In this document: in pieces, positions 25,431 through 47,431 of the stretch
Layout of the letters: every line of letters begins with the position of its first letter
How positions within the stretch are numbered: position 1 is the stretch's first letter
Source of the DNA: Chloroflexota bacterium
Lineage (GTDB): Bacteria; Chloroflexota; Anaerolineae; Anaerolineales; Anaerolineaceae
Direction: 5' to 3'
Length of the DNA stretch: 64,000 bases
Assembly: GCA_016838895.1 (NCBI GenBank)
Contig: JAEKNU010000010.1
Span: forward strand, 42,052 to 106,051
The notes under the pieces: generated by a model
What the model saw: only the letters and a program-made list of their open reading frames with translations
Told to the model about the DNA's origin: nothing
Databases searched by the model: none
Program-made: the position numbers and the translations under genes

Positions 25431-26360
25431 CTACCCCGAAGGATGTTGTGCCAAAAAAGTTTGAACTCGCTTCAAAGTGGGTAGTGATGGTTGCGCACCC
25501 AGCTGGGTAACTGCCAAGGCAGCCGTTGCGGCAGCAAAACGCATGGCTTCAACATGAGATAGCCCTTCAGCGATTGCTTTCGTAAATGCACCAACAAAAG
25601 CATCTCCTGCCGCAGTTGTATCCAGCGCTTCTACGTGAAATGGCGGCATAAAAAATTCTTCATCCACTGAAACAAACCAGGCTCCTTTTGCGCCCAACGT
25701 AAGGATAATGCCTTTCACGCCCTGTGCAATCCACTTTTTTGCAAACTGTACAGCTTCGCCTTCATTGTTCATTTTCTGCCCGCTGATGATTTCCATTTCA
25801 GTTTCATTTAAAATCAAATAGTCTATCATTGAGATCAAACCATCACTTAACATCTGAGCAGGAGCCGGATTAAAAATAATTTGCATATTGCGCTGTTTGG
25901 CAAGCTGGGCAGCAAATTCAACTGTACGTATCGGAATTTCCAGCTGCATCACCAATATTGCACCTGCATGAAACAATTCATTTGCGCTGGTCACTTCTTT
26001 TTGTGTTAAATGCATATTGGCACCCGGACTGACCACGATACTGTTTTGTCCTTGGTCATCCAGCAGAATAATCGCCGTACCAGTTGGAGCCTTTGGAAGT
26101 TTATAGACATAAGTTGTATTCATACCTTCATGCTTGAAAGCAGAAATATGTTGGTCGCCATAGCCATCCATTCCGACCATACCCACCATAGCTACATCAG
26201 CACCCAATCGTGCCATCGCTACTGCCTGATTAGCCCCTTTCCCTCCACCCGCATTTTGTAGGTCAGCGGATAAAATGGTCTCACCCGGAACAGGTAAATG
26301 ATCGCATTGCAGAATTAAATCCGTATTGATACTGCCAAGCACAACGATTGATTTCATCAT
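25431..26360 (-). CDS. rbsK: Ribokinase (PfkB family)
   Basis: A 309-residue PfkB-family sugar kinase with ribokinase hallmarks: N-terminal SINTDLILQCDHLPVPGET, the substrate motif GGGKGANQAVA (38-48), NPAPAQ (164-169), and the C-terminal DTTAAGDAFVGAF carrying the catalytic base D253. It phosphorylates ribose to ribose-5-phosphate in the cytoplasm. It is the last gene of the LacI-1 operon, 3 bp after the citryl-CoA-lyase-like gene, with GGAG six bases before the first of two ATGs. Its place beside two ADP-ribosylglycohydrolase-family proteins suggests that the operon releases ribose or a similar pentose. Confidence 0.93.
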   Translation of the reverse strand: MMKSIVVLGSINTDLILQCDHLPVPGETILSADLQNAGGGKGANQAVAMARLGADVAMVGMVGMDGYGDQHISAFKHEGMNTTYVYKLPKAPTGTAIILLDDQGQNSIVVSPGANMHLTQKEVTSANELFHAGAILVMQLEIPIRTVEFAAQLAKQRNMQIIFNPAPAQMLSDGLISMIDYLILNETEMEIISGQKMNNEGEAVQFAKKWIAQGVKGIILTLGAKGAWFVSVDEEFFMPPFHVEALDTTAAGDAFVGAFTKAIAEGLSHVEAMRFAAATAALAVTQLGAQPSLPTLKRVQTFLAQHPSG

Positions 26361-26363
26361 GAT

Positions 26364-27128
26364 TTACTCCGCCTTAAGGTTTTCATCCAGAATTTCCACT
26401 GGAGGAGCAAACTGCATTGGTTTTCCATCACTCATTTGCTCATGTACATGCGCTGCCAATCCGGCTGAACGCGCAATAATAAAAATGGATTTTCCCAACT
26501 GCCAATCCAGTCCCAATTCACTTATAATGGCCGCAATTGCTCCATCCACATTGATTGGTAATGTTTTACCAGTTTGCTGCACCCATTGCGATTGAATGGC
26601 AATCATCAAGTTTAGATAGCGTCCGTAGAATCCTTCCTGCTCAGCCAGTTCAAAGAGTCGTACTGTTCTGGGGTCAGGATCATGCACACGGTGTCCAAAA
26701 CCCGGCAGACGTTTCTTATTGACAACAAATTCCTGTACGATATTTTCAGCGATCATTTCAATATTGCCATCCGGGTTTTGCTGGGTTGCTTCCTGCAGCA
26801 TTTGGGCACAGGCCTCTCCCGCGCCGCCGTGATGTTCCCCTACGGCACTTAAACCAGCGGCCATGCAGGTTTGTACCGGGGATCCGCAGGAGGCAACCGT
26901 ACGCGCTACAAAAGCAGATGGAGCGTTCACGCCGTGATCTACACTACTGACCAAAACAGCATCCAGCATACGTGCCTGATGTACATTCGGTAGTTTACCG
27001 ACTAGCAGCAAAAAAATCACCTCAGAAAATGTGTGAATGCCCATCAAATCCTGAATCAACGCACCGCGAACCTTTATCTCACCCGGCTTGATGTGAGTGA
27101 TACTCGACTTTATAGGTACATTCTTCAT
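26364..27128 (-). CDS. Citryl-CoA-lyase-like protein (citrate synthase fold)
   Basis: 254 residues, much shorter than citrate synthase (about 370-430) and matching the stand-alone citryl-CoA lyase domain that is also the C-terminus of ATP-citrate lyase. Visible are DHGVNAPSAF (64-73), EHHGGAGEA (98-106), and LPGFGHRVHDPDPR with the expected catalytic H146, plus a later NVDGAIAAI segment. The family cleaves a (3S)-citryl-type CoA thioester to acetyl-CoA and an oxo acid. ATGA overlap with the upstream synthetase beta subunit implies coupled translation. The true acid need not be citrate; the operon points to a sugar-linked or sugar-derived acid. Confidence 0.85.
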   Translation of the reverse strand: MKNVPIKSSITHIKPGEIKVRGALIQDLMGIHTFSEVIFLLLVGKLPNVHQARMLDAVLVSSVDHGVNAPSAFVARTVASCGSPVQTCMAAGLSAVGEHHGGAGEACAQMLQEATQQNPDGNIEMIAENIVQEFVVNKKRLPGFGHRVHDPDPRTVRLFELAEQEGFYGRYLNLMIAIQSQWVQQTGKTLPINVDGAIAAIISELGLDWQLGKSIFIIARSAGLAAHVHEQMSDGKPMQFAPPVEILDENLKAE

Positions 27129-27784
27129 CTGGGTTCCTCCTTAACGAAGATACGGGCATCTACTGCGTAAACACCCTCAGGTAAAACAATCACAGGATTC
27201 AAATCAATCGAAAGCAAACGATTGGCCTGGTCAACAACAATATGGTTAAGCGCCTGCAACAAATCAATCAGATGGGCTACATTGCAGGCAGGTATATCCC
27301 GATAACCTTTTAATATATCTGATATCCGGCTCTCCTGAATCATTTCTTCGATCTGCCAACGATTCAGCGGTGGAATACGTATCACGGTATCGTCCATCCA
27401 TTCCACGAGCTTGCCGCCGCTGCCAAAAATCAGAGTGTGGCCAAATTGCTCATCCAGAGTGGTGCCCATTAACACTTCAATCCCGCCTGATATTTGCTGC
27501 TGGAGCAAATATCCATGCACTTGCCACCCTTGAGTAATCTCAGACAAACGCTTGATATGCTGTAGTAGCTCATCTTCATCTTGAATATCCAACACCACCA
27601 GATGTTGATCGGATTTGTGTGTGGCTTGCGGGGATATCAGTTTCAAGACCAATGGATAGCCGATTTCACTGGCCGCATCGCGAACTTGCTCTTTTGGATT
27701 GACCAATGTCTGTCTCGGAAAAGGAATACCATAGGGCTGCAGGAAATCGCGGGTTTCAAAAAAATCAAGGCTGCGTGCTATCAT
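27125..27784 (-). CDS. Acyl-CoA synthetase (NDP-forming), ATP-grasp (beta) subunit
   Basis: 219 residues from the ATG that overlaps the alpha-subunit stop by 4 bp (ATGA); the longer ORF-track start lies inside the alpha gene and is rejected. It has the ATP-grasp pattern of ADP-forming acetyl-CoA synthetase beta subunits: IGYPLVLKLISPQATHKSD near the N-terminus and SIDLNPVIV near the end. It transfers phosphate between nucleotide and the alpha-subunit histidine. Length matches the separate-subunit type (about 230 residues). Flanked by alpha (overlap) and the citryl-CoA-lyase-like gene (overlap), so the three form one enzymatic module. Confidence 0.9.
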   Translation of the reverse strand: MIARSLDFFETRDFLQPYGIPFPRQTLVNPKEQVRDAASEIGYPLVLKLISPQATHKSDQHLVVLDIQDEDELLQHIKRLSEITQGWQVHGYLLQQQISGGIEVLMGTTLDEQFGHTLIFGSGGKLVEWMDDTVIRIPPLNRWQIEEMIQESRISDILKGYRDIPACNVAHLIDLLQALNHIVVDQANRLLSIDLNPVIVLPEGVYAVDARIFVKEEPR

Positions 27785-29229
27785 AACCTGGCTTCCTCTT
27801 CTGCATAATGTAGTAAATATCTGCTGCGGTATTGCCAATATCGACAAGCCTCTGATAGTGCCTTTACTGCATCACTGACCTGATCAAAAACCGGGATATT
27901 CGCCTGTGTTAGCAACTGTATAGCTGATGAATTTGCCTGATCTGATGAATTCAAGTGTTGCCCCACCCAAACAACCAGCAAAGGTTTTTTTGTTTTTTGT
28001 GCAGCCACAATAATTGCCTGAGCGGTTTCATGATCCTGCTCCTGAATGGTCGTACGAGCCAACAATAGCAGCACCAGATCGGAACGTTCATCTTCAAAGA
28101 AAGGCAAAAGGGTTTGCATTGTGGCATCACCGCGCAAACTTGTGCCACGCACATCTGCCGGATTATGCCAATGCGTTACTGCAGCCAAATGGGGTACATG
28201 CTTTAGGGAGCGGTTCAATCCTGGGGAGATTTCTGCCAACTGCAAGCCTTCTCTTTCCAAGCAATCTGCTGCCAGAGAGCCCATACCCCCACTCTGGGTG
28301 ACCACCATAAAGCGCTTGAAATCTGCCAGGCGATTACCAAAAGTAAGCTGGATTTTTAGCAGATGAAGCATGGGCTGCACATCCTCTACCAGCGTCGCTC
28401 CGAATTGCTCACAAACCGCCTGGAATACACGATCCGAACCGGACACCGCGGCAGTATGGGTGGCCGCCGCCTTTTGTCCGCTTTGGGTACGGCCGCTTTT
28501 TACCAATACGATTGGTTTTCCTGCCAATAGTGCAGATTCCAGACCATGTTTGAAACCCTGACCATCATTAATACCTTCGATAAAAGAACCAATCACTTGT
28601 GTGCTTTTATCCTGTGCCAGATAAATAAGGCCATCCCCCAGGTCAAGATCCATTTGATTTCCAACAGATATCAATTTATTCATGCCAATCTGTTCATCAC
28701 AAAATACGCCAAACAAGGCCATCATTAATGCGCCGCTCTGTGAGATGAAAGACATGCCGCCTTGCAAACATGCACCTGGTAATCGGGTGGCAATCAACCC
28801 TCCAGACAGGTCCGCATACCCGGCACAATTAGGACCTAATACAGCCACGTCGGATGCAGCAATTAATGCCCGCAATTCTTCCTGAATTTTTTCCCCCTGC
28901 GGATCACTTTCTGCAAAGCCGGCGCTGATAATCAATATGGCTTTGACATTGGCATCAATACATTGTTGCACTAAATCGAATACCCGATCACGATTGACTA
29001 CGATAATCGCCACTTCAACCTGAACTGGAATCTGGTTCAGGTTTGGATAACAATCCAGTCCAAAAACAGATTCATATTTCGGATTAACCGGGAAGATTTT
29101 TCCGGGAAATTCAAACTGAATTAAATTTTGAAGGATACCTGCCGGATATAACCCTCTTTCCGAGGCGCCAATGACAGCAATGTTTTGTACCTGAAAAAAG
29201 CGCGCCATTCCAATCGGTTCAGCGCACAT
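27781..29229 (-). CDS. Acyl-CoA synthetase (NDP-forming), CoA-binding (alpha) subunit
   Basis: 482 residues from the ATG that has GAGGTGG five bases upstream and overlaps the previous stop by 11 bp. Rossmann CoA-binding domain first (NIAVIGASERGLYPAG, residues 16-31), then ligase domain 1 with LGPNCAGYADLSGG (131-144) and MSFISQSGALMMAL, and ligase domain 2 with KAAATHTAAVSGSD, where H258 is the phosphorylated histidine. Such enzymes interconvert acid + CoA + ATP with acyl-CoA + ADP + phosphate. Coupled to a citryl-CoA-lyase-like protein, it could activate an imported hydroxy acid for cleavage. The acid specificity is unknown. Confidence 0.9.
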   Translation of the reverse strand: MCAEPIGMARFFQVQNIAVIGASERGLYPAGILQNLIQFEFPGKIFPVNPKYESVFGLDCYPNLNQIPVQVEVAIIVVNRDRVFDLVQQCIDANVKAILIISAGFAESDPQGEKIQEELRALIAASDVAVLGPNCAGYADLSGGLIATRLPGACLQGGMSFISQSGALMMALFGVFCDEQIGMNKLISVGNQMDLDLGDGLIYLAQDKSTQVIGSFIEGINDGQGFKHGLESALLAGKPIVLVKSGRTQSGQKAAATHTAAVSGSDRVFQAVCEQFGATLVEDVQPMLHLLKIQLTFGNRLADFKRFMVVTQSGGMGSLAADCLEREGLQLAEISPGLNRSLKHVPHLAAVTHWHNPADVRGTSLRGDATMQTLLPFFEDERSDLVLLLLARTTIQEQDHETAQAIIVAAQKTKKPLLVVWVGQHLNSSDQANSSAIQLLTQANIPVFDQVSDAVKALSEACRYWQYRSRYLLHYAEEEARL

Positions 29230-31291
29230 GAACCACCTCAAAACAGGTGTGGCAATTGGCGAAATTAGCCAGTCCGATCATACCGGTCAGATTGGGTTCA
29301 TCTTCATCTGTCCACTGCAATGACAGTTCTTCATCCGGCAACGCAATCGAGATGTGATTTCCGGAACCATCTATAGTCAGTCGCATTGATGCTTCAAGTT
29401 TCATTGAGCAAGACGTTGAAATCAATTCCCGATACAGCCCATCACTCTTCTTAAACAGGACCAATTTATTATCAGAAACACCTGCGGCATAGGCTCTTAG
29501 TGCGCCCTGTACACGGAAGAGCACCAAATGAGTATCGCCCAAAATTGGCTTGAGACGGCTTTCAATATGCATATCATCCCAATCCAACAGCCCAGTATAG
29601 GATTCATTGGTTTCAGTTCCGCTGGCATGAAGTCCATCCGATTCCGAGCGCCAGAACCCGCGCAAATATGTCCATTGTGCAGCAGATCCAACCTGCATTG
29701 GCCAATCCGCTAGATTCATCTCCAGATTTGGTCGTCCACCCCAATCCAGCTCTTCTAAGTAAAATTCACCCTTCCATGTTTCAGGCGACATATTGCGAAG
29801 CACCAAACCGACCTGTGATAAACAGGCGTTTGGGATTGCAGGAATCACCCATTCTACTTCCTGAGATTTACCTGGCAGCAAATGAAGGGCACCACCTTTG
29901 ATCATTTTTCCTGAGTGATTGTCAAAAACATACAGTGCCGCATAAATCTGATCCGGCTGTCCTTCAGGTAGATATAATCGTGCAGTTATTTTCTGCCCTG
30001 GATAAATGGTGGGTGAAAAACCTGCTCCGTAATAATTGGAACTAAGCTGCTCAGGAGTCAGGTAAGTATGCAGATAAATGCCCATTTCCTGTTTTTTCTT
30101 CAATAGGCGTACAGTACATCTCAACGCGCCCTGATCATTAAGCGTAGACTGGCGCATCAACAAAATATTGCGCTGCTCGCCCCAATATCTGAACCCACGA
30201 GTGGAACCCGGTAAGGAAAAATGGCATTTGGGCTTTTTCTTTGTTCCAGCAGCCGAGTTCAACTTCTGGTTGATAGTCACAATGCGTTCAACAACATCCG
30301 GGATATCCACGATATTGGCCGAACCAATTACACTGGCTGCGACAAAAGTATCATTCTGTGGTGCTCTCCAACGCTGTTCAATGCCAGCCAAACCGACCGC
30401 AGTGGCAACCACACAACCTACATTGCCTACATTACAGTCTGTATCCCAACCAGCCATATTGGTAATACAAATTGAACGAGAAAAATCACCTTCGCCATAA
30501 AGCAATCCCATCATAATTACTGCTGCATTAGGAATAATATGTACTATGCCCGGATAACGATTATAGCCAAAGTTCTTATAAATATATTCATAGCAAGCAC
30601 GCCAATCTGCGGGATTGGATTGATAGAAATCAACAATAGCCTGTACCACGCGGGTATATTCACAATCAGCAGGGATCACCGAGAGCCCAGCCTGTATCCA
30701 ATGCAATGGTTGTGAACTGGAAAATGCTGCACTGACCATCGCAGCAATAAACATTCCGCCGTAAATTCCATTGCGGTCATGCGTAACGGATGCTGCTTTT
30801 TTAGCATATGCAGCCGCTTGCTGCTCATCACCTGGGAACAATAAACCCCAAATATCAGAAAATATTTGTCCGCCAATCTGTTCCGCGACGGTGAAACCAT
30901 TCATCATTGCCGATCCCGATTGAGGAGCAGCAATGCCATTTTTCAAATTTAAATAAGCTGTATGTTCTGTGGATTGTCCGTAGCCCCCCCACCATAAACT
31001 GCCATGCTGATCACCCAAATAATTGAGCAGTGTTTTTCCCATCTGCTCGGCGCTGACATTTTCACCATAATCTTCAATTGCGCGCAAAAAAATTAATGGT
31101 ACCGATGTATCATCATCTGGCTGAAAGATTTTCCCCTCTGCTATGGGCAGGTAAGAATCAATTTCACCAATAAAATCCTGTATTTGATGATATGTCCAGT
31201 TCTCGATGGGTGCCCCAAAACGTACACCAATACATTTTCCTAGCCACCCGGCATAAACTTTTTCTTGATAATTTTCTGGTATAGGCACCAT
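29219..31291 (-). CDS. ADP-ribosylglycohydrolase-family protein with C-terminal beta-sandwich domains
   Basis: 690 residues from the ATG after AGAGAG; the longer start would lie inside an upstream hairpin. Residues ~1-330 are an ADP-ribosylglycohydrolase (ARH/DraG) fold with both metal motifs: PDDDTS (58-63) and GWDTDCNVGN (281-290). The remainder (~350-690) looks like two beta-sandwich modules (AGFSPTIYPGQKITARLYLP and SEDGLHA-like HIESRLKPILGDTHLVLF regions), resembling carbohydrate-binding or lectin-like folds. There is no signal peptide, so it acts in the cytoplasm. The family cleaves N- or O-glycosidic bonds to ribose. In this operon a small ribosyl or glycosyl compound is a more likely substrate than a modified protein. 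Confidence 0.85.
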   Translation of the reverse strand: MVPIPENYQEKVYAGWLGKCIGVRFGAPIENWTYHQIQDFIGEIDSYLPIAEGKIFQPDDDTSVPLIFLRAIEDYGENVSAEQMGKTLLNYLGDQHGSLWWGGYGQSTEHTAYLNLKNGIAAPQSGSAMMNGFTVAEQIGGQIFSDIWGLLFPGDEQQAAAYAKKAASVTHDRNGIYGGMFIAAMVSAAFSSSQPLHWIQAGLSVIPADCEYTRVVQAIVDFYQSNPADWRACYEYIYKNFGYNRYPGIVHIIPNAAVIMMGLLYGEGDFSRSICITNMAGWDTDCNVGNVGCVVATAVGLAGIEQRWRAPQNDTFVAASVIGSANIVDIPDVVERIVTINQKLNSAAGTKKKPKCHFSLPGSTRGFRYWGEQRNILLMRQSTLNDQGALRCTVRLLKKKQEMGIYLHTYLTPEQLSSNYYGAGFSPTIYPGQKITARLYLPEGQPDQIYAALYVFDNHSGKMIKGGALHLLPGKSQEVEWVIPAIPNACLSQVGLVLRNMSPETWKGEFYLEELDWGGRPNLEMNLADWPMQVGSAAQWTYLRGFWRSESDGLHASGTETNESYTGLLDWDDMHIESRLKPILGDTHLVLFRVQGALRAYAAGVSDNKLVLFKKSDGLYRELISTSCSMKLEASMRLTIDGSGNHISIALPDEELSLQWTDEDEPNLTGMIGLANFANCHTCFEVVHVR

Positions 31292-31306
31292 ATTTCTCTC
31301 TATTTC

Positions 31307-31336
31307 ATGGGGATGGCAGTTTAATGCCATCCCCAT
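31307..31336 (-). promoter_or_regulatory. Intercistronic hairpin after binding-protein gene, system 2
   Basis: ATGGGGATGGCA / TGCCATCCCCAT, 12-bp perfect arms around 6 bases, starting 13 bp past the binding-protein stop and ending 15 bp before the hydrolase start. There is no T-run, so it is a likely mRNA stabiliser or partial attenuator. Confidence 0.8.
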
Positions 31337-31348
31337 AGGTTAAACTAA

Positions 31349-32740
31349 TTACTGTGATAATCCAGCGTTGTTTTTATCCAGACATTCTTGTGCGTCCACA
31401 ACCAAAGGCGGGACAATACTCTCCAAATCAGTATTTCCTTCATCAATGTAGCCTGTTGTTACGGTATCGAAGATACCACCCACACAATCCCAATAGAATT
31501 GTGAGCGTTCATAGTTCAGAACACGAGCTGGTTTTTCCAATTCGGCGTAGATGGGTCCCAGAATCGGATCTTCAAGCCAACCCATTTCTTCCCAAATTTG
31601 AGGAATGGCGGGCGTCCAAATGCCGGCTTCGGCCATCAATACGCCGCCATCATAACCACTGAGGAATTTCATGAAATCCCAAACGCGGCTCTTATAAGCA
31701 CTGTCGCTATTCATGTAAAACATATAGGAATCTGTCCAGGGAATCTCCTCAACGCCATCTTCAAAGGCTGGGGGTGCAATCACACCATATTCAAAATCGA
31801 CCTGTTCCAGGAAAAGCGGTACTTCCCAGGTGGTCATCCCAAACATACCAATTTGACCGGAGAGGAAATCCAGTCCGAATTGATCAGCCAAACCTGCCGG
31901 AGCAGATACTTTATCAGTGGCAGCCAGATCCAGTACATATTTCATGGCATTAATTGCCTCAGGTGTATCCATATAGCCAGATACAGTTTTTCCATCCAGG
32001 CTTACAAAATCAGCACCCAGATTAAAGGAGAAAGGATGCCACTGGAACCAACCGGAATCAATGGTTGACAAACCATAAATATTATTTCCAGCATCGGTGA
32101 CCGCAATGGCTTTCTCACGTAAATCTGCGGATGTCCAGCCTTCCTGTGGATATTCCACACCAGCGCCATCGAAGATATCTTTATTATAGAGGAATACATA
32201 TCCGGTGGCATCACGTGGTACGGCATAGTATTTTCCCTCATATTCACCACGGATGGCGCCAATCGGGAACCATAATTCTTCAGGATTCAGACCGTCATTT
32301 TCCATGTAGGGGGTCAAATCTTCCAGAAAACCTTGAGATGCAATATCCGGTGACCAATAGTGATACCAAACATCCGGGCCCTGACCAGCAGCAATCGCAG
32401 TAAGCACACGTGTTGCAAATCCACGAGATGGGAACAACGAAACAGCAACCTTGGTATTTGGATGCGTTTCTTCAAAGGCGCGCGCCAATTGATAATGCAT
32501 TTCGCGTGTCTCGGCTGTATCGCGGCCTTTTTCGGTGCCCCACCAGGTAATCGTGACGACATCTTCATCACTGATTTCAGGTTCAGCTTCTGGCATCCCA
32601 GTTACTTCAACATTTTTCTCAACAATCTGAGTCTGAACGACAATCTCTGCCTGTGGTTGTGCTGCCGGTTGACAGCTTGCCATCATCATTGAGATGATTA
32701 CGAGTAGACCAAATAACGGATATATCTTGTGAAATTTCAT
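31349..32740 (-). CDS. Extracellular solute-binding lipoprotein (family 1), system 2
   Basis: 463 residues from the ATG following AAAGGAGAGAG. The signal peptide MKFHKIYPLFGLLVIISMMM runs into lipobox MASC (C23). The mature part shows the usual family-1 layout: TITWWGTEKGRDTAETREMH, AAGQGPDVWYHYWSPDIASQ, NKDIFDGAGVEYPQEGW, and GQIGMFGMTTWEVP. It binds the operon's substrate outside the cell. Here the permease genes precede it, unlike the other three systems, and the hydrolase gene follows after a hairpin. Confidence 0.94.
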   Translation of the reverse strand: MKFHKIYPLFGLLVIISMMMASCQPAAQPQAEIVVQTQIVEKNVEVTGMPEAEPEISDEDVVTITWWGTEKGRDTAETREMHYQLARAFEETHPNTKVAVSLFPSRGFATRVLTAIAAGQGPDVWYHYWSPDIASQGFLEDLTPYMENDGLNPEELWFPIGAIRGEYEGKYYAVPRDATGYVFLYNKDIFDGAGVEYPQEGWTSADLREKAIAVTDAGNNIYGLSTIDSGWFQWHPFSFNLGADFVSLDGKTVSGYMDTPEAINAMKYVLDLAATDKVSAPAGLADQFGLDFLSGQIGMFGMTTWEVPLFLEQVDFEYGVIAPPAFEDGVEEIPWTDSYMFYMNSDSAYKSRVWDFMKFLSGYDGGVLMAEAGIWTPAIPQIWEEMGWLEDPILGPIYAELEKPARVLNYERSQFYWDCVGGIFDTVTTGYIDEGNTDLESIVPPLVVDAQECLDKNNAGLSQ

Positions 32741-32823
32741 TTTCTCTCTCCTTTGCCTTAGATAGGTTCGTTTTCTCTTGGGGTACAAAAACATCCGGTT
32801 GATTTTCTTTCCACCTCCTCCTC

Positions 32824-33690
32824 TTATCCTTTCCTTCCTGTCATTGAAATTCCACCCATTAAACGCTTTTGCGTGATAAAAAACAATATTGCAGGCGGCA
32901 ACATAGCGATCAATGATCCAGCCATTAACATCTCCCAGGCAGTGAACTTGGCTCCCTGGAAAAATGCCAATCCGATTGATACAGTAAATTTTTGCGGATC
33001 ATTGATGTATACCAACGGCCGTAAAAAGTCATTCCAAACATCAACAAATGTAAACACCGTAACCAAAACCAATGCAGGTACACACAAAGGCAGGATGACA
33101 TGCCACAATACCTGTATTCGATTTGCGCCATCCAGCAAGGCAGCTTCATCGTATTCCAACGGAATGGTTAGCATATATTGGCGCATCAGGAATATGAGAT
33201 ATGGACTTCCCGCAAAGGAAGGCAATATCAATGGCAAATAAGAATTTGTCAAACCCAATTTGGCAAACATCACGAACTGAGGTACTAATGTGATGGTATT
33301 TGGAATCATCAAAGTCGCCAATAAAATCAGGAAGAGTACATCGCGTCCCGGAAAACGGAAGCGTGAAAAGCCATAGGCGACCAATGTTGTGGCAAACAAT
33401 TGTCCAAGAATATTCCAAAATTCCAGCACGAAAGTGTTGCCGATAAATCTTGCGAAAGGAATTTCCTCAAAAACCTTTGGAAAATTCTCGAAAGAGATCG
33501 GATTCGGAATCCATGAGGGAGGTAGCTGTAAAATCTGATCAGGAGAACGCAAAGCAGTGGCGAGCATCCAGTAAAATGGTACTCCAATGACAATGGCAAT
33601 ACTAATCAAAACCAAATAGGACCAAATTTTTCGGCGTGTTTTATGTGAGATGGATGGCTTTTTTTGTTTCTTAATCGTTGTTTCAATCAT
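32824..33690 (-). CDS. Sugar ABC transporter permease (MalG-like, CUT1), system 2
   Basis: A 288-residue inner-membrane permease with six hydrophobic segments, the EAA loop EYDEAALLDGANRIQVLWHVILP and the typical end ISMTGRKG. A basic N-terminal tail (TIKKQKKPSISHKTRRK) precedes the first helix. It follows the MalF-like partner by 11 bp with AGGCAGG before the ATG. Together with 33702-34670 it forms the channel of the LacI-1-controlled importer. Confidence 0.93.
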   Translation of the reverse strand: MIETTIKKQKKPSISHKTRRKIWSYLVLISIAIVIGVPFYWMLATALRSPDQILQLPPSWIPNPISFENFPKVFEEIPFARFIGNTFVLEFWNILGQLFATTLVAYGFSRFRFPGRDVLFLILLATLMIPNTITLVPQFVMFAKLGLTNSYLPLILPSFAGSPYLIFLMRQYMLTIPLEYDEAALLDGANRIQVLWHVILPLCVPALVLVTVFTFVDVWNDFLRPLVYINDPQKFTVSIGLAFFQGAKFTAWEMLMAGSLIAMLPPAILFFITQKRLMGGISMTGRKG

Positions 33691-33701
33691 CTATCACCTG
33701 C

Positions 33702-34670
33702 CTACTTCTTTTCTGCTTCATAATGCACCCAATATGGCGAGCTGCGGAATACCAGAATCGTGATAACCAGTATAAATATGGTCAACAGCCAGGATAATGC
33801 TGAGGCATACCCCATTTGTAGATTTTGCCAGCCCTTTACATAGACATACAACATAAAGAAATAAAGCTCTTTGATCGGTCCGGCATAGCCATTCGCCTGA
33901 GAGACAACGTAGGCTGGTGTAAAGGTCTGGAAAACACCAATTAACTCGACGACAATCTGGAAGAAGACTATCGGTGACAACATCGGCAGGGTAACATTCC
34001 AGAATTTTTGCCAGGCAGAAGCACCGTCAATATCAGAGGCATCATATAATTGTTCAGGAATATTTTGGAGTCCAGCCAGATAGATAATGGCACTGGCCCC
34101 CAGCCGCCACATGGCGATCATGATGATACCCCACAATGCGTAGCGCGGATCCTTAAACCAGTTTGGGCCATCGATTCCGATGTAGCTTAACAAAATATTG
34201 AATAAACCATACGTTGGCTGCAAAATCCACATGAATATTAATGAAGCGGCAATGGCTGGTGCAATGGTAGGTAAATAGAAGAGCGTACGAAAAAATGCAA
34301 TCCCACGAATTTTAGAATTGAGTGCCATAGCCGTGATAATGGATAAGATCGTTATCAATGGAATGTAAATTCCAGCATATTTGAAAGTGACAAAAACACT
34401 GTTCCAAAAATTCTTATCCCCGGTGAAAATCTCAATATAATTATCCAGGCCAATCCAGATCGGATCACTGACAATATTCCAGCGCGTAAAACTCATACCC
34501 AACGAAATCAAAGCAGGACCGGCATAGAAAAAGAGAAATCCGATCAGCCAGGGAAGGATGAAGAGTATGCCTGTTATTGCCTCTTTCCTACGTTGGTCGG
34601 ATAAATCTCTCCAACGAAGTTTAATGCGTTTCTTTTTCGTTTCTTCCTGAATTGCACTCAGATTTGCCAC
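33702..34670 (-). CDS. Sugar ABC transporter permease (MalF-like, CUT1), system 2
   Basis: A 322-residue permease starting at GTG (sequence GGAGGAGGTGCCTAGTGGCA, well-placed box). Helix 1 is EAITGILFILPWLIGFLFFYAG; the EAA loop is QLYDASDIDGASAWQKFWNVTLP. It sits 13 bp after the second ADP-ribosylglycohydrolase gene and pairs with the MalG-like gene. CUT1 permeases usually carry di- or oligosaccharides and glycosides, consistent with a glycosylated compound entering for hydrolysis inside. Confidence 0.93.
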   Translation of the reverse strand: MANLSAIQEETKKKRIKLRWRDLSDQRRKEAITGILFILPWLIGFLFFYAGPALISLGMSFTRWNIVSDPIWIGLDNYIEIFTGDKNFWNSVFVTFKYAGIYIPLITILSIITAMALNSKIRGIAFFRTLFYLPTIAPAIAASLIFMWILQPTYGLFNILLSYIGIDGPNWFKDPRYALWGIIMIAMWRLGASAIIYLAGLQNIPEQLYDASDIDGASAWQKFWNVTLPMLSPIVFFQIVVELIGVFQTFTPAYVVSQANGYAGPIKELYFFMLYVYVKGWQNLQMGYASALSWLLTIFILVITILVFRSSPYWVHYEAEKK

Positions 34671-34683
34671 TAGGCACCTCCTC

Positions 34684-35634
34684 CTATCCGGGTAACTGAC
34701 ATAAATCAGTTGCTAACTCAAGCATATCTTCCTGTGCAGCAGCCTTGATACAAATTCCACTGGGTTTACGAACACGCTCCACCCAATTATCCGGGATGGC
34801 CTGCAAACCATGAATTGCACCGCCTAACGCACCTACTACGGCACCGATGGTGTCTGCATCCCGTCCAAAATTACAGGCCCAGAACATACCTTTCTTAAAA
34901 TCACCGCCCGTTAATCGGAAAATAGAAAATATCTGCGGCATCGCCTCAGCGGATTGGGCATGAGAAGGCGTCCAGAAGACATTATGCAAGTCTTCCCAGG
35001 CATCCTCGATGGTGCCGGCGTCAGTGCAAATCTTATCTGCTAATTGCATGGCATAGCCTAGCCATGAATCCTCAGGTATACGGCTGATGGCCTGCTCCCA
35101 GATTGCATCAACCGAAGCGCCGACCATTGCTAAAGAAACAGCCGCAGCCACAGCCTGAGCGGCCCAAATACCATCCGTATAATGGCTGACTTCAGCATCC
35201 AGTTCAGCTAAGGCAGCCGCTTTATCAGGATCGCCTGCCGCATAAACACCGAATGGAGCGGCACGCATGGCTGCACCATCATCGTCATTATTAACATTGA
35301 AGCGACCGGATTGAGGCGGCAGCATGCCACGATTCAAATTGGCTACCGCCCCATAAAGTGGGGCTCCACCCCGGTCAAACAAACCGCCCTGATCCAGAAT
35401 ATACTTTTTCCAACCATCCAAAACTGCCTGGCGGGTTAATTGCCCCTTGCAATCCAATAAAATACGCGCGCTTAGTACAGCGAATTCGGTATCATCTGTA
35501 CTGCGAGCATCGCCGTAAAAGTTTGTAATAATGCCATAGCGTTTACGAAATAGATCAGAGCGACCTACATCTCCGAGCGCATCGCCACATGCCAGCCCTA
35601 CCATACACCCTTTGGCTCTTTCTATCTTTTCCAT
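34684..35634 (-). CDS. ADP-ribosylglycohydrolase-family protein (single domain)
   Basis: 316 residues, the length of a bare ARH/DraG domain. The two metal-binding motifs are complete: STDDTE (45-50) and GRDADTIGAVVGALGGAIHG (257-276), so a dinuclear metal hydrolase is expected. It shares little beyond these motifs with the larger hydrolase at 29219, so the operon has two distinct members. It is the first structural gene, with ATAGGAG before its ATG and a LacI-type palindrome 28-47 bp upstream. By analogy with E. coli yegU beside the kinase gene yegV, it may act on a nucleoside-like riboside. Confidence 0.88.
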   Translation of the reverse strand: MEKIERAKGCMVGLACGDALGDVGRSDLFRKRYGIITNFYGDARSTDDTEFAVLSARILLDCKGQLTRQAVLDGWKKYILDQGGLFDRGGAPLYGAVANLNRGMLPPQSGRFNVNNDDDGAAMRAAPFGVYAAGDPDKAAALAELDAEVSHYTDGIWAAQAVAAAVSLAMVGASVDAIWEQAISRIPEDSWLGYAMQLADKICTDAGTIEDAWEDLHNVFWTPSHAQSAEAMPQIFSIFRLTGGDFKKGMFWACNFGRDADTIGAVVGALGGAIHGLQAIPDNWVERVRKPSGICIKAAAQEDMLELATDLCQLPG

Positions 35635-35661
35635 ATGACTCCTATCATCTAAATTAAAATT

Positions 35662-35681
35662 TGGGGTTGAACGTTCCCATA
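35662..35681 (-). promoter_or_regulatory. LacI-1 operator upstream of the structural operon
   Basis: Core GAACGTTC (35669-35676) inside GGGTTGAACGTTCCCA. It shares the minus-strand string TGGGAACGTTC with the site at the lacI-1 promoter. It lies between the lacI-1 stop and the first structural gene. Confidence 0.7.
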
Positions 35682-35694
35682 AATTGGTAAATTT

Positions 35695-36705
35695 TTATGC
35701 CGGTCTGGTGGTTGAACCACGTACCACCAATTGACATGGTACCTTTGATATCTGCTGCTTGCCTTGCTCAACTGCTGCGGTCATACGTTGAATCAGGTAA
35801 TTGGCAGCGATTTTCCCTATTTGGTATTTGTCTTTCCGTACCGTGCTGAGGGCCGGAATGGATAAAGAGGCCGCGTATATATCATCAATACCCATGATGG
35901 ATATATCCTTGGGCACCTGATACCCCATGGAATTGGCCACTTGCAAGGCGCCCAGCGCAATCAAATCATTCGAAGCGATCACAGCTGTGGGTTTTTCAGG
36001 CATTTGTAATAATTGCGTCATCCCCTCTTCCCCACCGTGATTATCAAAGCGTACATTGACAACAAATTCCGATTGCACTGGTAAATCACGTTCAGCAAAG
36101 AAATTTAGAAAATTGTTTTTCCGCGAATGGCTAGACCCAGTCTCTGAACTGCCCAGAAGCAAAGCAATGCGCTCATGTCCTAGTCGCACCAGGTAGGCCA
36201 AGGCTTCGCGCATGGCTGCCGGGCTGTCAGACCCAACCATATCCAGGGTGTTAAACCCTGGGCGAATGCCAAGAACAACCGATGGAATTTGTGTGGTGAT
36301 GATCTGTTTTTCGGAAACATGAATTGGATTGATAAGGATGCCATCCACCCGGGTTTGCATGGCAATTTTTAAAAAGTCCTGTTCCCGGGCATGATTCCAA
36401 TCCAGATTGGCAAACACAACCGAATACCCCGCTTCATCCATGCGATCCTGTATACCGCGGGCAACTTCCGGCCAAAATGGGTTGGTAATGTCCGGAATCA
36501 TCAGCATGATGATATTGGTACGATCTGTCCGCAAACTACTGGCAATGGAATTATGTTGGTAACCCAATTCTTCAATGGCCTGACGAACGCGCTTTACCGT
36601 TTCATCACTGACCTTGCGAACATCATCATTGATCACGCGCGAAACCGTGGTCTTGGATACCCCTGCAATTTTGGCAACATCAATGATCGTTGGACGGTTT
36701 ACCAT
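35695..36705 (-). CDS. LacI family transcriptional repressor 1
   Basis: A 336-residue LacI/GalR repressor. The N-terminal helix-turn-helix and hinge read PTIIDVAKIAGVSKTTVSRVINDDVRKVS, with YQHNSIASSLRT at the hinge; the periplasmic-binding-like effector domain follows (IIMLMIPDITNPFWPEVARG, MTAVIASNDLIALGALQVAN, GIDDI). It should repress the 35634-25431 operon and itself: the palindromic GGAACGTTCC overlaps the start of its transcript, and a related site precedes the operon. The inducer is likely the imported compound or a product such as a pentose. AAAGGAT precedes the ATG. Confidence 0.95.
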   Translation of the reverse strand: MVNRPTIIDVAKIAGVSKTTVSRVINDDVRKVSDETVKRVRQAIEELGYQHNSIASSLRTDRTNIIMLMIPDITNPFWPEVARGIQDRMDEAGYSVVFANLDWNHAREQDFLKIAMQTRVDGILINPIHVSEKQIITTQIPSVVLGIRPGFNTLDMVGSDSPAAMREALAYLVRLGHERIALLLGSSETGSSHSRKNNFLNFFAERDLPVQSEFVVNVRFDNHGGEEGMTQLLQMPEKPTAVIASNDLIALGALQVANSMGYQVPKDISIMGIDDIYAASLSIPALSTVRKDKYQIGKIAANYLIQRMTAAVEQGKQQISKVPCQLVVRGSTTRPA

Positions 36706-36725
36706 AGTTTATCCTTTATGGGGGT

Positions 36726-36735
36726 GGAACGTTCC
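36726..36735 (-). promoter_or_regulatory. LacI-1 autoregulatory operator
   Basis: Perfect 10-bp palindrome GGAACGTTCC immediately after the -10 box of the lacI-1 promoter, the classical repression position. Confidence 0.75.
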
Positions 36736-36736
36736 C

Positions 36737-36765
36737 ATTATAGCAATTCCAACAAGCAAAGTCAA
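36737..36765 (-). promoter_or_regulatory. Promoter of lacI-1
   Basis: Minus strand TTGACT (complement of 36760-36765), 17-bp spacer, TATAAT (complement of 36737-36742). Confidence 0.82.
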
Positions 36766-36895: not shown

Positions 36896-38425
36896 TCATT
36901 TGGCCTTTCTTTCCCATTTCTTACCCGTTGCTAATGCTACACAATTATAGGCACCGTCATAAATTCCAATTTGTTTATTCTTAACAATCTGCTCACAAAA
37001 CATTGTGAGTAAATCATCTTCATCTGTGAGAACGTCAATCGCCTGCAAAGTCTGTGGAATCGAACGGGCTTCAACGGTACCATCACCTAATTCGGCGCCG
37101 CGGATGGCACCCCACATTTCGTGCCCTCCCACCCTTTCATTGAATATCTTTGGAATCGGATAAAAAGCCAGTTCACTGGGTTTGGTGATCATCACATCCA
37201 CAACACGCATCAAATAATTTGTGGCATATACGCCATGAAATGTATTATCAAATAAAAATATATGCAAACCGCTGACAGAATGATCCCGGATAGCATCTGT
37301 AAAATCACGGGCTTCGTCCCAGGTGAAATACGTTTTGATCAGATCCTGATAGTCAGCCAATTCTTTTGACAGCCAATCCCAATTTGATTTATGATCTCCA
37401 AGATTAACAAATAAGGTTACTTTATCTTGCTTTATTAATGGAATACAGTGTTCAATAACTGCTTTAAATAATTCTTTTTGTGCGCCTGCGCCGCCCATTG
37501 TAATCATATAGCGGCGCGGCTCTTTTGCTTTCATGCGACGCAAACGTGCCGCACAGTCCACCTCAATATTTTCCACCAATTCATGATCCACATGGTGTCC
37601 GGTATAATACAGCGCATCTGACGGTATCGTTTTTAACGCGCGACTTTTATCATCAAAGCCGCGCATAATCTTAAATCCATAATATCCGGATGGCGATTGT
37701 ACACCATGTTTGGCACCTTCGGTCAGTTGGAAGGACATCGGCCAGTTATCAAACATCATATCCACCACATTCGTCATGCCGCCTGCAACAGCACCCATTG
37801 CATTCCACATATGGGCAGTTAACATGGGCATATCAGGGGGTAAAGCGGCATACATGTTACTAAATAATTCACTCATTTTATAATCTTTTACATTTGTTTT
37901 CAGAAATCGCCATGGCCACCCAACGATCCAGGCATTTAAGATCTGCCACACACCTGGAATCGCCTTCTCTCCAGTGGTTACGGACTCCCAAACATATTTA
38001 TTAAATAATGCACTGCTTTGAGAGAGCCGGGAAAAACGAGAATACCATGTATTACACCAGTTGATCACATCGCTGGTGACACCAGGTATGGCTAACAAAT
38101 CCAACCAATAAGGCGTAAACCCCATGGCTTTGGCACATGACATGCCCGCCATAGCAATCCGATAATGCCCATACCCCATGCGGATCGTACTAATGATTAC
38201 GGCATTATCCATATTGATGGGTTGCCCTTGATCACCGCGCACAATATCCTTGAGTTCAAACATCGAACCCAGATAGGGATTGTCTTGCAAACTCAAAGTG
38301 TATTTCTCTTCAGGATCATACTGAAATTTTTTGGCTAACATTGCTTTCCATCTATCAGATGCCGCTGATTGCTGCCTGCTGATCGCATTTCCGTATACTG
38401 TATAACAACCATTTACTTTTTGCAT
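36896..38425 (-). CDS. Unrecognised GT-B-like protein in a sugar ABC operon
   Basis: 509 residues from the first ATG (protein begins MQKVNGCYT); the ORF-track start is a TTG within the GAGGAG box. I do not recognise a named family. Two Rossmann-like halves are suggested: residues ~75-300 starting NAVIISTIRMGYGHYRIAMA, a GxGH-type loop reminiscent of MGDG synthase/GT28 enzymes, and ~310-509 with RRYMITMGGAGAQKELF and MITKPSELAFYPIPK, similar in position to the nucleotide-sugar-binding region of GT28. No signal peptide or membrane helix. It is the last gene of the LacI-2 operon. A glycosyltransferase or phosphorylase role is only a guess. Confidence 0.5.
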   Translation of the reverse strand: MQKVNGCYTVYGNAISRQQSAASDRWKAMLAKKFQYDPEEKYTLSLQDNPYLGSMFELKDIVRGDQGQPINMDNAVIISTIRMGYGHYRIAMAGMSCAKAMGFTPYWLDLLAIPGVTSDVINWCNTWYSRFSRLSQSSALFNKYVWESVTTGEKAIPGVWQILNAWIVGWPWRFLKTNVKDYKMSELFSNMYAALPPDMPMLTAHMWNAMGAVAGGMTNVVDMMFDNWPMSFQLTEGAKHGVQSPSGYYGFKIMRGFDDKSRALKTIPSDALYYTGHHVDHELVENIEVDCAARLRRMKAKEPRRYMITMGGAGAQKELFKAVIEHCIPLIKQDKVTLFVNLGDHKSNWDWLSKELADYQDLIKTYFTWDEARDFTDAIRDHSVSGLHIFLFDNTFHGVYATNYLMRVVDVMITKPSELAFYPIPKIFNERVGGHEMWGAIRGAELGDGTVEARSIPQTLQAIDVLTDEDDLLTMFCEQIVKNKQIGIYDGAYNCVALATGKKWERKAK

Positions 38426-38581
38426 CCTACGATATATTCTCCTCAATAAAATAGTATTCCAAACTGCAAGCGTGAAAAGATCAGCCAGTAAAACATCTAC
38501 GAATAAAATTCTGCCAACCTTCTACAGCGCAAGATCAAATATCAAATACAAAATTGAATAAGCTCCGCTAAACTGAACTGA

Positions 38582-44297: not shown

Positions 44298-46376
44298 TTA
44301 AATTCTGTTTATTGGAATCAAGACACTGGAAAAATTCGAAAGAGAAAGCCGTATACCTACCTCTTCCCATGCTGATCCGCTTTTTATTTGCCCCACTATT
44401 TCATAAAGCTGATTTGCTGCTAACCCACGTGGATAGATCGTTGGTGTTTCGACTGGTTCTGCGCAATACGTGCGAAAAGCGAATAACACACCATTCTGCT
44501 GATCCTGTGATATATACAAAACCGCTGAAACCGCATACTCAACCGCTGATCGCAAAAGGTAACGATCACCCCAATGGATGATCTCCCGATATTTTTTATA
44601 TTCGGAAATCCAATGTTTGGCTTCTTCTCGTTCAGTATCTGACCAATTGGCAATGTTTCCCCCGATACCCAAAACGCCGCACATGCTGACATGAAAGCGA
44701 AAAGCAAGCGGAATCACAGCTTCATTCTGATCGGTAACCCAGCTCTCCATAGTGGCTGCCGGAAAGAGCTGTAAATAATTTTCCTGAATACATAGCCTGG
44801 CGCTGGCTTCGGTATTATCACTGGGCCACACCTGATCAGCATACTTCATTATACCTAAATCTACCCGACCTCCCCCGCCAGAACAACTCTGAAAAATAAT
44901 ATTTGGATGCCGTTGTCTTAACGTCTGCCAAACATGATAGACACCCATGGTATAGCGCACCCACAGTTCACGTGCATCTCCTGATGCGTCCGGCCAACCG
45001 GGTTCACTGACATTACGATTCATGTCCCACTTGATGAAGCGAATATCATTTTCCGATAGCAGTTTATCCAATACGGAAATCAAATATTCCTGCACTTCAT
45101 TTTTTGCCAGATTCAAGATCAACTGATTGCGTGCCAGTGTCCTATCCAGACCCGGAAAATGAATTACCCAATCCGGATGAAGTCGATATAAATCACTATC
45201 CGGATTGACCATTTCAGGTTCAATCCATAGACCAAAATCCATACCCAGTTTTTTTACTTCATCAATTAATGGTGTTAAACCCTCAGGAAATTTCTTCTCA
45301 TCCGGCCACCAATCGCCCAAACCGGCACGATCATCATTACGTCTATTAAACCAGCCATCGTCCAGAACGAATAATTCAACGCCCATTTCAGCAGCGTTTT
45401 TTGCCAACGCAATTTGCGAATGCACATCCACATCAAATGTTGTCGCTTCCCAGGAGTTATATAAAATCTTGCGCGTGATTTTTCCGTGCGGTAAATATTC
45501 TTCCCGCACATAATCATGCATTTTTTGACTGGCCTCATGAAACCCTTCACTGGAAAATCCACCGATTGCATGTGGGGTCGTAAATCGTTCACCTGGCTGT
45601 AGCTGCCAATTAAAATCCCAATCATTAATGCCGCTCAATATCTGTAACATCTGATTCTCGGAAATTTCTGCAATGGTTTTCCAATTTCCACTCCAGGCAA
45701 CAGTACCAAACCATACCTTTCCTGTGTATTCGGTTGCGGTTCCATCATCCAGCGCAAACCATGGATTGCCATTATGTCCAGTAATCAAGCGACGGCTCGC
45801 CAATACTTTTTTCCCGGGACCTAAAATTTCATGATGCATTTTCATTTCATCAGCCCATTTTCCGCTGGTGTAGCTTAAACGATATGTCTCCAGATCAGGT
45901 AAATGCCAGATACTGGAAAAAATACGGGAAACATCAATGGGTTTCATCCCTTCTTGATAAATCTCGACCCAACGTTCTATGAGATCATAACGGCTGTGAA
46001 TTTGATAGCAAAGGATTACATGCAGCTCATATGAAAGATCTGTCAAATGGATTTTCAAAATGTCTTTATCCTGTTCTGCTTCCGCGTCGACAAAACGCAA
46101 ACGAACATCTCGCACACCATCCTGGAAACGAATACATAGGCATGGATCACGATAATCAGCGCCTTCTGCAGTAGGGTATTCTAGCAATCTTCTATTTTCT
46201 GGCAAATTAAAACTATCTTCTTCATCTGGATCCTTAGGCAAAGGATAATCGTCGGCATGTTGTAATCGAGGTCCCCAATAGCGGTGCGTTAGATATCCAT
46301 TTGGCGACAATCCGAGTGCATACGCACATGAATCCATCTCCAATACCCAACTATTTTTATCAATAATAATTGACAC
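44298..46376 (-). CDS. Alpha-galactosidase, GH36
   Basis: 692 residues starting at GTG with GGAG six bases upstream. Classical GH36 architecture: beta-sandwich (1-~300), barrel (~300-620) and C-terminal sheet. Active-site signatures: YNSWEATTFDV, LFVLDDGWF, nucleophile D451 in FIKWDMNR, CSGGGGRVDLG, and acid/base D520 in VWPSDNTEA. It is a retaining enzyme releasing galactose from raffinose-type or galactomannan oligosaccharides. No signal peptide, so it is cytoplasmic. Its own promoter and a 10-bp-arm inverted repeat lie upstream. Some relatives prefer alpha-N-acetylgalactosamine. Confidence 0.93.
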   Translation of the reverse strand: MSIIIDKNSWVLEMDSCAYALGLSPNGYLTHRYWGPRLQHADDYPLPKDPDEEDSFNLPENRRLLEYPTAEGADYRDPCLCIRFQDGVRDVRLRFVDAEAEQDKDILKIHLTDLSYELHVILCYQIHSRYDLIERWVEIYQEGMKPIDVSRIFSSIWHLPDLETYRLSYTSGKWADEMKMHHEILGPGKKVLASRRLITGHNGNPWFALDDGTATEYTGKVWFGTVAWSGNWKTIAEISENQMLQILSGINDWDFNWQLQPGERFTTPHAIGGFSSEGFHEASQKMHDYVREEYLPHGKITRKILYNSWEATTFDVDVHSQIALAKNAAEMGVELFVLDDGWFNRRNDDRAGLGDWWPDEKKFPEGLTPLIDEVKKLGMDFGLWIEPEMVNPDSDLYRLHPDWVIHFPGLDRTLARNQLILNLAKNEVQEYLISVLDKLLSENDIRFIKWDMNRNVSEPGWPDASGDARELWVRYTMGVYHVWQTLRQRHPNIIFQSCSGGGGRVDLGIMKYADQVWPSDNTEASARLCIQENYLQLFPAATMESWVTDQNEAVIPLAFRFHVSMCGVLGIGGNIANWSDTEREEAKHWISEYKKYREIIHWGDRYLLRSAVEYAVSAVLYISQDQQNGVLFAFRTYCAEPVETPTIYPRGLAANQLYEIVGQIKSGSAWEEVGIRLSLSNFSSVLIPINRI

Positions 46377-46407
46377 TTTTCACTCCTCTATTTGTGGAAT
46401 ACCTACA

Positions 46408-46436
46408 ATATTACAAGCAAATAGAATTGTTGGCAA
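46408..46436 (-). promoter_or_regulatory. Promoter of the GH36 gene
   Basis: Minus strand TTGCCA (complement of 46431-46436), 17-bp spacer, TAATAT (complement of 46408-46413), about 25 bp upstream of the expected leader. Confidence 0.7.
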
Positions 46437-46444
46437 TCCAGCGG

Positions 46445-46473
46445 TTGTTCCATTTAAATTTTCAATGGAACAA
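46445..46473. promoter_or_regulatory. Inverted repeat upstream of the GH36 promoter
   Basis: TTGTTCCATT, 9-base spacer, AATGGAACAA: perfect 10-bp arms centred about 60 bp upstream of the expected start of transcription, a position suited to an activator. Confidence 0.5.
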
Positions 46474-46610
46474 AGCGGAACCGACAATATTCATTTAAGA
46501 TAATATATAGTCTGGTAATGGTTTGGTCAGGGGAAGAACTCAATAATAATCAGGGAAAATGAGCACAGGTAATAAAATAAAAGCTTCACGGAAAGGATTT
46601 AAGGATATTG

Positions 46611-47402
46611 CTACTTTGCGCTTTTCACAATTGAACATATGACGGTTACCCCTCGCTGTTCAATTGCCTCAACCAATTGCAATTCAAGATTATTGTCTGT
46701 CACTATCGTATTGATTTTTTCAATCGGTGCCAGAAAAGATGTCGCAACCCGTTCAAATTTGGAAAAATCTGCAACGACAATCACATTGGAGCTGATTTTC
46801 AATACGGCGCGGTCTGTCATCGTTTCCGGCATAAATTCATGGGTTAGGCCATGTTCCAGACTAATAGCCGGGGTGCCAATAATCACTTTATCCGCCCTGA
46901 ATTCAGAAATAGACTGCTCGGTAATATGACCGATGAAAGAGAGCTCACTGGATCGCAATTCCCCACCTAATCCAATGATGTTGTTATCTGTTTTACTGAG
47001 TGTGTTTAATATTGGCAATGAGTTCGTAATAACTGTCAGGTTTTTATGATTAACTAATGCTCTGGCAACTTCCAAAACCGTCGTTCCACTTCCCAAAAAG
47101 ATAGTTTCCCCGTTGTTTATCAATTTCGCAGCTTCCAGACCGATCAATCGCTTTTGTTCGCAGTTCATATCCTGTCTATCAATAATTGGCACTTCCAGGG
47201 ATGGTGAGTCCAACGCAATCGCACCGCCATATACACGTTGAATCATGTCGTGTTCATCCATAAATTCCAGATCACGTCTTGCAGTTGCCTCGCTTATCGC
47301 AAAGCGTTCGCAAATATCAAGTACACTGACCCGCTTATTGCGCTCAATCATCTCTACGATCTCTTTATGGCGTTCGGTACTTGATAATGAATGAATGGTC
47401 AT
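46611..47402 (-). CDS. DeoR family transcriptional regulator
   Basis: 263 residues. N-terminal DeoR-type helix-turn-helix (TERHKEIVEMIERNKRVSVL, ISEATARRDLEFMDE) followed by the sugar-phosphate sensing domain with GETIFLGSGTTVLEVARAL and ADKVIIGTPAISLEHGLTHEF. Relatives (LacR, AgaR, GatR, GlpR) respond to phosphorylated sugars such as tagatose-6-phosphate. It is the last of the 15 genes, 29 bp after the GatZ-like gene, and probably represses the operon at the repeated operator at 63638-63671. One family variation: TPAIS where many have xxGIx. Confidence 0.93.
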   Translation of the reverse strand: MTIHSLSSTERHKEIVEMIERNKRVSVLDICERFAISEATARRDLEFMDEHDMIQRVYGGAIALDSPSLEVPIIDRQDMNCEQKRLIGLEAAKLINNGETIFLGSGTTVLEVARALVNHKNLTVITNSLPILNTLSKTDNNIIGLGGELRSSELSFIGHITEQSISEFRADKVIIGTPAISLEHGLTHEFMPETMTDRAVLKISSNVIVVADFSKFERVATSFLAPIEKINTIVTDNNLELQLVEAIEQRGVTVICSIVKSAK

Positions 47403-47431
47403 GTAGGTCGTTATTCCTTTAAATGCTAGTG

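Follow-up and report, generated by a model that had tools for sequence, protein, structure and literature searches.

A conserved LacI-controlled operon that probably serves the use of a citrate glycoconjugate

Which nutrient would call for a sugar-type importer, two hydrolases of the ADP-ribosylglycohydrolase family, an acid-cleaving synthetase and lyase, and a ribokinase, all under one repressor? A Chloroflexota bacterium (GenBank assembly GCA_016838895.1, contig JAEKNU010000010.1) raises this question with an operon at positions 25431 to 36705 of the 64,000-nt stretch that we analyzed, called the window below. A sequence-only reading had proposed that a ribosylated or otherwise glycosylated hydroxy acid is imported, that the hydrolases free sugar and acid, and that ribokinase and the synthetase/lyase pair process the two halves. 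Following up this proposal computationally, we conclude with moderate confidence that the operon is a self-contained catabolic unit under LacI control whose substrate is a citrate glycoconjugate, with citramalate possibly taking the place of citrate in some carriers.

Gene order, conservation and operators

The lacI gene and the nine tightly packed genes behind it all lie on the minus strand, at the positions that the sequence-only reading had given. In order of transcription, they are lacI, a 60-base gap, the single-domain hydrolase gene ARH316, 13 bases, malF, 11 bases, malG, 29 bases, the solute-binding protein gene, 12 bases, the longer hydrolase gene ARH705, a 23-base overlap, the synthetase alpha-subunit gene ACSa, an overlap, the beta-subunit gene ACSb, a 4-base overlap, the lyase gene, 3 bases and the ribokinase gene. 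Spacing within the operon is thus 3 to 60 bases or a short overlap. The Pfam families present are PF03747 (twice), PF01547, PF00528 (twice), CoA_binding/Succ_CoA_lig, ATP-grasp_5, Citrate_synt, PfkB and LacI.

An ARH316 alignment was scanned against about 85,000 genomes; the best 80 loci, which we retained, belong to Chloroflexota, Spirochaetota, Bacillota, Gemmatimonadota and Neomarinimicrobiota. An acid-cleaving module stands near the hydrolases and a sugar ABC importer in 52 of these loci. Most of the others are interrupted by contig ends, and in L157 and L163 the module protein AtuA is present, slightly more distant. None of 18 control loci from the window's phylum, which have an ARH705-type hydrolase without ARH316 (L038 to L055, some cut by contig ends), holds a module. 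A genome from a different family within the window's class (L036, which is also L160) repeats the window's gene order and has operators in both corresponding positions; its ARH316 and ARH705 are 61% and 48% identical to those of the window. The sequence-only reading had named a lack of conservation of the gene set in other genomes as a finding that would refute the proposal; the set is, on the contrary, clearly conserved across several phyla. Judged from these comparisons, the set is an old, widely conserved cluster; this conservation, together with the control loci and the exclusivity of the operators, rules out chance proximity of the genes.

The LacI-family repressor (35695..36705) has RbsR, CytR and PurR as its nearest models and scores below their cut-offs. 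The palindrome that the sequence-only reading had matched to it corresponds to two putative operators of the type GGGAACGTTC, neither assigned a strand: O1 upstream of lacI (36724..36737, TGGGAACGTTCCAC, with GGGAACGTTCCAC at 36724-36736) and O2 between lacI and ARH316 (35666..35679, TGGGAACGTTCAAC, with GGGAACGTTCAAC at 35666-35678). Within the 4.95-Mb genome, the 12-mer ATGGGAACGTTC is confined to these two sites. Most Chloroflexota clusters carry the form TGRGAACGTTCYCA upstream of lacI, between lacI and ARH316, or at both places, and a near-perfect ACGT-centred palindrome occurs in 51 of the 80 regions compared to 5 of 1600 shuffled regions. In the whole genomes of ten relatives, the motif is found once or twice each, always at the ARH316 cluster, and a search for a wider regulon returned no site outside this operon in 11 genomes. 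By this distribution the repressor appears to have a single target. Since the operator is restricted to this operon, the pathway should be complete here, barring housekeeping genes such as that of a MalK-type ATPase.

Interchangeable modules for the acid

The acid-cleaving slot is filled by four enzyme sets among the best 80 loci. Form (i), found in the window and four further loci, pairs an ADP-forming acyl-CoA synthetase with a lyase. Form (ii), in 16 loci, joins a SucC-like subunit to a SucD-lyase fusion, the architecture of ATP-citrate lyase; in two Spirochaetota loci SucD and the lyase are separate genes. Citrate_bind (PF16114) matched 14 of 16 scanned SucC-like proteins, one of the 16 being an ordinary SucC control. 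Form (iii), in 10 loci, is the classical citrate lyase CitDEF, with CitD often fused to CitE. In L142, genes for CitC, CitD, CitE, CitF and a CitX-CitG fusion directly follow four ADP-ribosylhydrolase (ARH) genes; CitC, CitD, CitF, CitG and CitX score above the NCBI curated equivalog cut-offs and CitE below (340 of 443). Form (iv), in 22 loci, consists of AtuA and DUF4387; among solved structures, their only relatives are the two CmlAB citramalate lyase subunits (PDB 9ERQ/9EVF). Both proteins are homologous to 9ERQ over their full length, and the cluster AtuAs are 47-53% identical to its CmlA, with one subgroup at 39-41%.

Parsimony on the ARH316 tree, which was quickly built and has long branches, requires 10 changes among the four forms, indicating that the slot has been refilled repeatedly. 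All four have one reaction in common, the cleavage of citrate or citramalate to acetate or acetyl-CoA and a 2-oxo acid. The proposal that a hydroxy acid is cleaved here is strongly supported by these sequence comparisons; because the synthetase/lyase pair gives way elsewhere to citrate lyase, citramalate lyase or proteins like ATP-citrate lyase, the imported compound's acid half is almost certainly citrate or citramalate. With four interchangeable solutions to one step, this half is unusually well constrained for an orphan operon.

It is rather unlikely, in our estimate, that the acid is citramalate throughout, such that a glycosyl-citramalate conjugate is imported and all four modules are citramalate or citramalyl-CoA lyases yielding acetate or acetyl-CoA and pyruvate. 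The 22 clusters with a homologue of the 9ERQ enzyme speak for this view, as does the labelling of clostridial citramalate lyases as citrate lyases because the two are homologous (PMC4682846). It is opposed by the CitF score above the citrate lyase equivalog cut-off, by the SucC partner with the citrate-binding domain of ATP-citrate lyase, and by the resemblance of the window and cluster lyases to the citryl-CoA lyase 6HXP, which extends to the residues described next.

The window lyase (26364..27128), a member of the citrate-synthase superfamily with its catalytic His-His-Asp intact, scores 188 bits against PDB 6HXP and at most 84 against any citrate synthase. It also exceeds the cut-offs of three curated citryl-CoA lyase subfamilies (NF004869, 250 against 212 bits; NF004866, 247 against 245; NF004868, 218 against 193). 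The HGG/GH/D triad and the DPR and Arg positions are intact in every cluster lyase with a full-length readable domain; most relatives from the phylum that lie outside such clusters lack at least one of these residues. We take the DPR and Arg positions to be those that bind the oxaloacetate carboxylates in citrate synthase. Assignment of the window enzyme to the citryl-CoA lyase type is strongly supported by these scores and residues, and the margin for 6HXP together with the kept DPR and Arg positions leads us to favor citrate over citramalate for modules of the window type. No lyase relatives were found in the viral contigs searched.

The partner enzyme has the architecture of an ADP-forming acyl-CoA synthetase, with CoA_binding and Succ_CoA_lig in the alpha subunit (27781..29241) and ATP-grasp_5 in the beta subunit (27125..27784). 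The alpha subunit contains an ATHT segment as expected for phospho-histidine and may start instead at ATG 29208; the beta subunit probably starts at ATG 27784, which gives the 4-base overlap. As the pair misses the TIGR02717 cut-off for ADP-forming acetate--CoA ligase (355 against 567 bits), we do not file it as acetate-specific. The Hydrogenobacter citryl-CoA synthetase and lyase of the reverse tricarboxylic acid cycle (6HXQ/6HXP) likewise cleave citrate in two ATP- and CoA-dependent steps and include the nearest solved relative of the window lyase. However, the window synthetase is of another subfamily than the SucC/SucD type of Hydrogenobacter, which is represented by SucC in relatives of the window cluster, and it belongs to an importer and hydrolase operon rather than to a carbon-fixation cycle.

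Three further observations concern module proteins. The SucC-like subunit at L160:16547-18124 (L036:13304-14884) has an extra cysteine-rich C-terminal part resembling a 4Fe-4S ferredoxin domain, and Fer4_9 matches this part in one SucC-like member. The AtuAs of the clusters fall into two distinct branches, neither of which includes the methylaspartate-cluster proteins to which CmlAB belongs. The more distant branch (39-41% to CmlA; L126:13067-14494, L144, L145, L153, L154 and L163) was separately recruited to ARH clusters and may have a different substrate. Finally, in glutamate-mutase clusters of Prevotella and E. coli (L191:8998-10719 and L194:8004-9688), the genes for AtuA (DUF1446) and DUF4387 come after that for methylaspartate ammonia-lyase. 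The E. coli AtuA there is about 92% identical to citramalate lyase subunit A of 9ERQ, a match that would answer the question of the fate of citramalate, described as unclear in PMC4682846. We considered whether AtuA/DUF4387 is a new citrate-handling enzyme and rejected this, as the pair already bears the name citramalate lyase CmlAB in the PDB.

Hydrolases, importer and sugar

Both hydrolases exceed the PF03747 gathering score and contain the metal-binding Asp/Thr motifs. ARH316 (34684..35634), the anchor of the conserved cluster, retains STDDTE and GRDADT, and its metal motifs T46 D47 D48 and D259 D261 T262 are invariant in 22 sequences. The window hydrolases share their fold and dinuclear metal motifs with DraG, ARH1, ARH3 and MJ1187 but differ in metabolic-operon context, in the additional domain of ARH705 and in two motifs. 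In place of the GGDxDT and NGAAMR of DraG and of a DraG-like protein encoded in the window's genome, the ARH316s have GRDADT (or GRDTDT/GRDSDT) and DGAAMR. The first pattern is found in 72 of 82 ARH316s, the other 10 being unmatched by it, and D/S-DGAAMR or DDGAVMR in 68. The additional conserved Arg next to the metal ligands (Arg258 in ARH316) is a candidate holder of a carboxylate; Asp119 of ARH316 is conserved as well.

DraG-type enzymes are known to regulate metabolic proteins, and every cleavage module in these clusters uses citrate or citramalate, so free citrate or metal citrate might be imported, with the ARH proteins as DraG-like regulators that strip the transporter or the enzyme that cleaves citrate of ADP-ribose. 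We consider this very unlikely. ARH316 scores far below the DraG/ARH cut-offs (TIGR02662, 67 of 337 bits; NF041672, 49 of 490), ARH705 matched no NCBIfam model, and both have altered motifs. Neither the operon nor the families that recur in related clusters include a recognisable ADP-ribosyltransferase gene. Two to four distinct ARH proteins per cluster, a ribokinase and a CUT1 importer would also be hard to explain.

Known CBM66 members bind fructofuranosyl ends. ARH705 (29219..31336) has a C-terminal beta-sandwich part behind its N-terminal ARH fold in a structure predicted with a local distance difference test score (pLDDT) of 91, and one of these domains matches CBM66 (template modelling score 0.84 to PDB 4B1M, 1.8 Å, 19% identity). 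The predicted domain would fit a furanoside and proves nothing on the ligand.

It is distinctly unlikely that the ARH-family enzymes cleave an ester or amide of citrate, a reaction for which no sugar is needed at the scissile bond. The departure of their motifs from aligned ADP-ribose hydrolases would allow it, as would the esterase-like proteins within some clusters. Against it stand the sugar-type importer, the ribokinase of several clusters, the CBM66-like domain of ARH705, and the superfamily itself, which is known for acting on N- and O-glycosidic bonds.

Some relatives have up to four ARH-type hydrolases per cluster. Some clusters (L121:13885-14982, L122:16104-17003 and L136:8191-9117) encode, ahead of or behind ARH705 and next to the permease or other ARH genes on its far side, a protein that by eye resembles an alpha/beta-hydrolase and for which no Pfam match was found, placing it between those genes and ARH705; it is possibly an esterase for the same substrate. 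On a Gemmatimonadota chromosome (L137:9956-14430), four consecutive ARH genes precede an oxidoreductase-like gene without importer or citrate module, which suggests a different use of the same hydrolases. The window's genome holds a second operon of LacI, ABC importer, ARH705 and ribokinase genes (contig C47, L039:301-11409), with a GH35-type glycosidase and without an acid-cleaving module, suggesting that ARH705 and ribokinase also serve an acid-free riboside or glycoside.

The importer is of the CUT1 class, which transports oligosaccharides and glycosides. It comprises two permeases assigned by family models, MalF/UgpA-like (33702..34670) and MalG/UgpE-like (32824..33690), and an SBP_bac_1 extracellular binding lipoprotein (31349..32740). 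The longest reading frame of the latter starts at 32794; translation probably begins at ATG 32740, which has a better ribosome site and is followed by the lipoprotein signal MMMASC. No ABC ATPase gene is present in the operon. The genome's one MalK-type ATPase, on another contig (G000:C56), is presumably shared with this importer.

The kinase (25431..26360), of the PfkB family, passes the TIGR02152 ribokinase model (352 against 299.65 bits) and misses NF008353 (318 of 341). TIGR02152 is passed in eight clusters, those of the window, L099, L123, L142, L151, L152, L159 and L162, which cover module forms (i), (iii) and (iv); L152, cut off by its contig, has no recognised module. On the strength of this kinase family, ribose is the best single guess for the sugar. 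An ARH family together with ribokinase could also mark an operon for salvage of ADP-ribose or NAD-derived ribosides, with citrate cleavage incidental, which we regard as scarcely probable. The citrate/citramalate module is the most consistent component after the hydrolases and importer, being replaced by analogues and not lost, and the operon contains no recognisable phosphatase, Nudix or NAD enzyme.

Immediately upstream of lacI, on the same strand, is a gene for a 516-amino-acid protein with DUF6937 and DUF6938 (36896-38446), which does not belong to the conserved cluster. An ordinary-looking galactoside/tagatose-type cluster at 44298-50865 comprises a GH36 alpha-galactosidase, a DeoR regulator, a GatZ/KbaZ-like protein, PfkB and a major facilitator superfamily transporter.

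Proposed pathway and its meaning

For a citrate glycoconjugate, we propose the following route. The binding lipoprotein and the two permeases, energized by the MalK-type ATPase, would import the intact conjugate. ARH316 and ARH705, acting as dinuclear-metal small-molecule furanosidases, would then release acid and sugar, as we infer from their family, the importer type, the kinase and the odd active site. The synthetase would convert citrate, ATP and CoA to citryl-CoA, which the lyase would split into acetyl-CoA and oxaloacetate. In those carriers where a ribokinase supports this step, the kinase would phosphorylate the freed sugar, most likely D-ribose, to ribose 5-phosphate.

Several observations weigh against this route. 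Four loci (L117, L137, L175 and L177, the only such cases) are uninterrupted yet have no recognised module. Ribokinase is absent from most clusters, and six PfkB kinases of Clostridia clusters fall below the ribokinase cut-off. The suggestion of ribose and ribokinase is thus upheld by the kinase family and fails as a general feature: we rejected ribokinase as a core component because most clusters do without it, and the sugar may differ between carriers or be processed elsewhere. ARH705 is widespread without a module, which means that its reaction is not restricted to this acid. Citramalate may be the acid of some carriers, given that AtuA/DUF4387 is by name a citramalate lyase. The literature searched yielded no naturally occurring citrate with a ribosyl or furanosyl group.

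Every part comes from a known family, and the operon is a kind of glycoside utilization operon. The E. coli yegTUV and Bacteroides rus (ribose-utilization) loci also place an ADP_ribosyl_GH-family protein beside a PfkB kinase and a transporter; they are not known to have a citrate-cleaving module. The comparison with yegU/yegV in the sequence-only reading holds at the family level and no further. Known citrate fermentation operons have a citrate carrier. L142 has the whole citCDEFXG set and another 9 clusters have cit genes, but the ARH clusters pair the lyase with a sugar-type ABC importer and ARH hydrolases. In the open-access literature that we searched, neither the gene combination nor the implied nutrient was found, and there is a fair chance that the nutrient belongs to a new class.

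We consider it evenly balanced whether glycosides of citrate or citramalate, probably ribofuranosides or related furanosides, form a common, undescribed class of compounds that feeds a dedicated operon in at least dozens of species of several phyla, with a branch of the ARH superfamily as its furanosidases. Cultured carriers, among them Clostridium pascui, Alkaliphilus peptidifermentans and Geosporobacter ferrireducens, offer a direct way to look for the missing substrate. If the proposal is true, the anaerobic carbon metabolism of sediments, sludge and gut would gain a new class of nutrient and a new pathway, and a metabolic role would fall to ADP-ribosylglycohydrolase-family proteins, which are usually annotated as enzymes of protein de-ADP-ribosylation.

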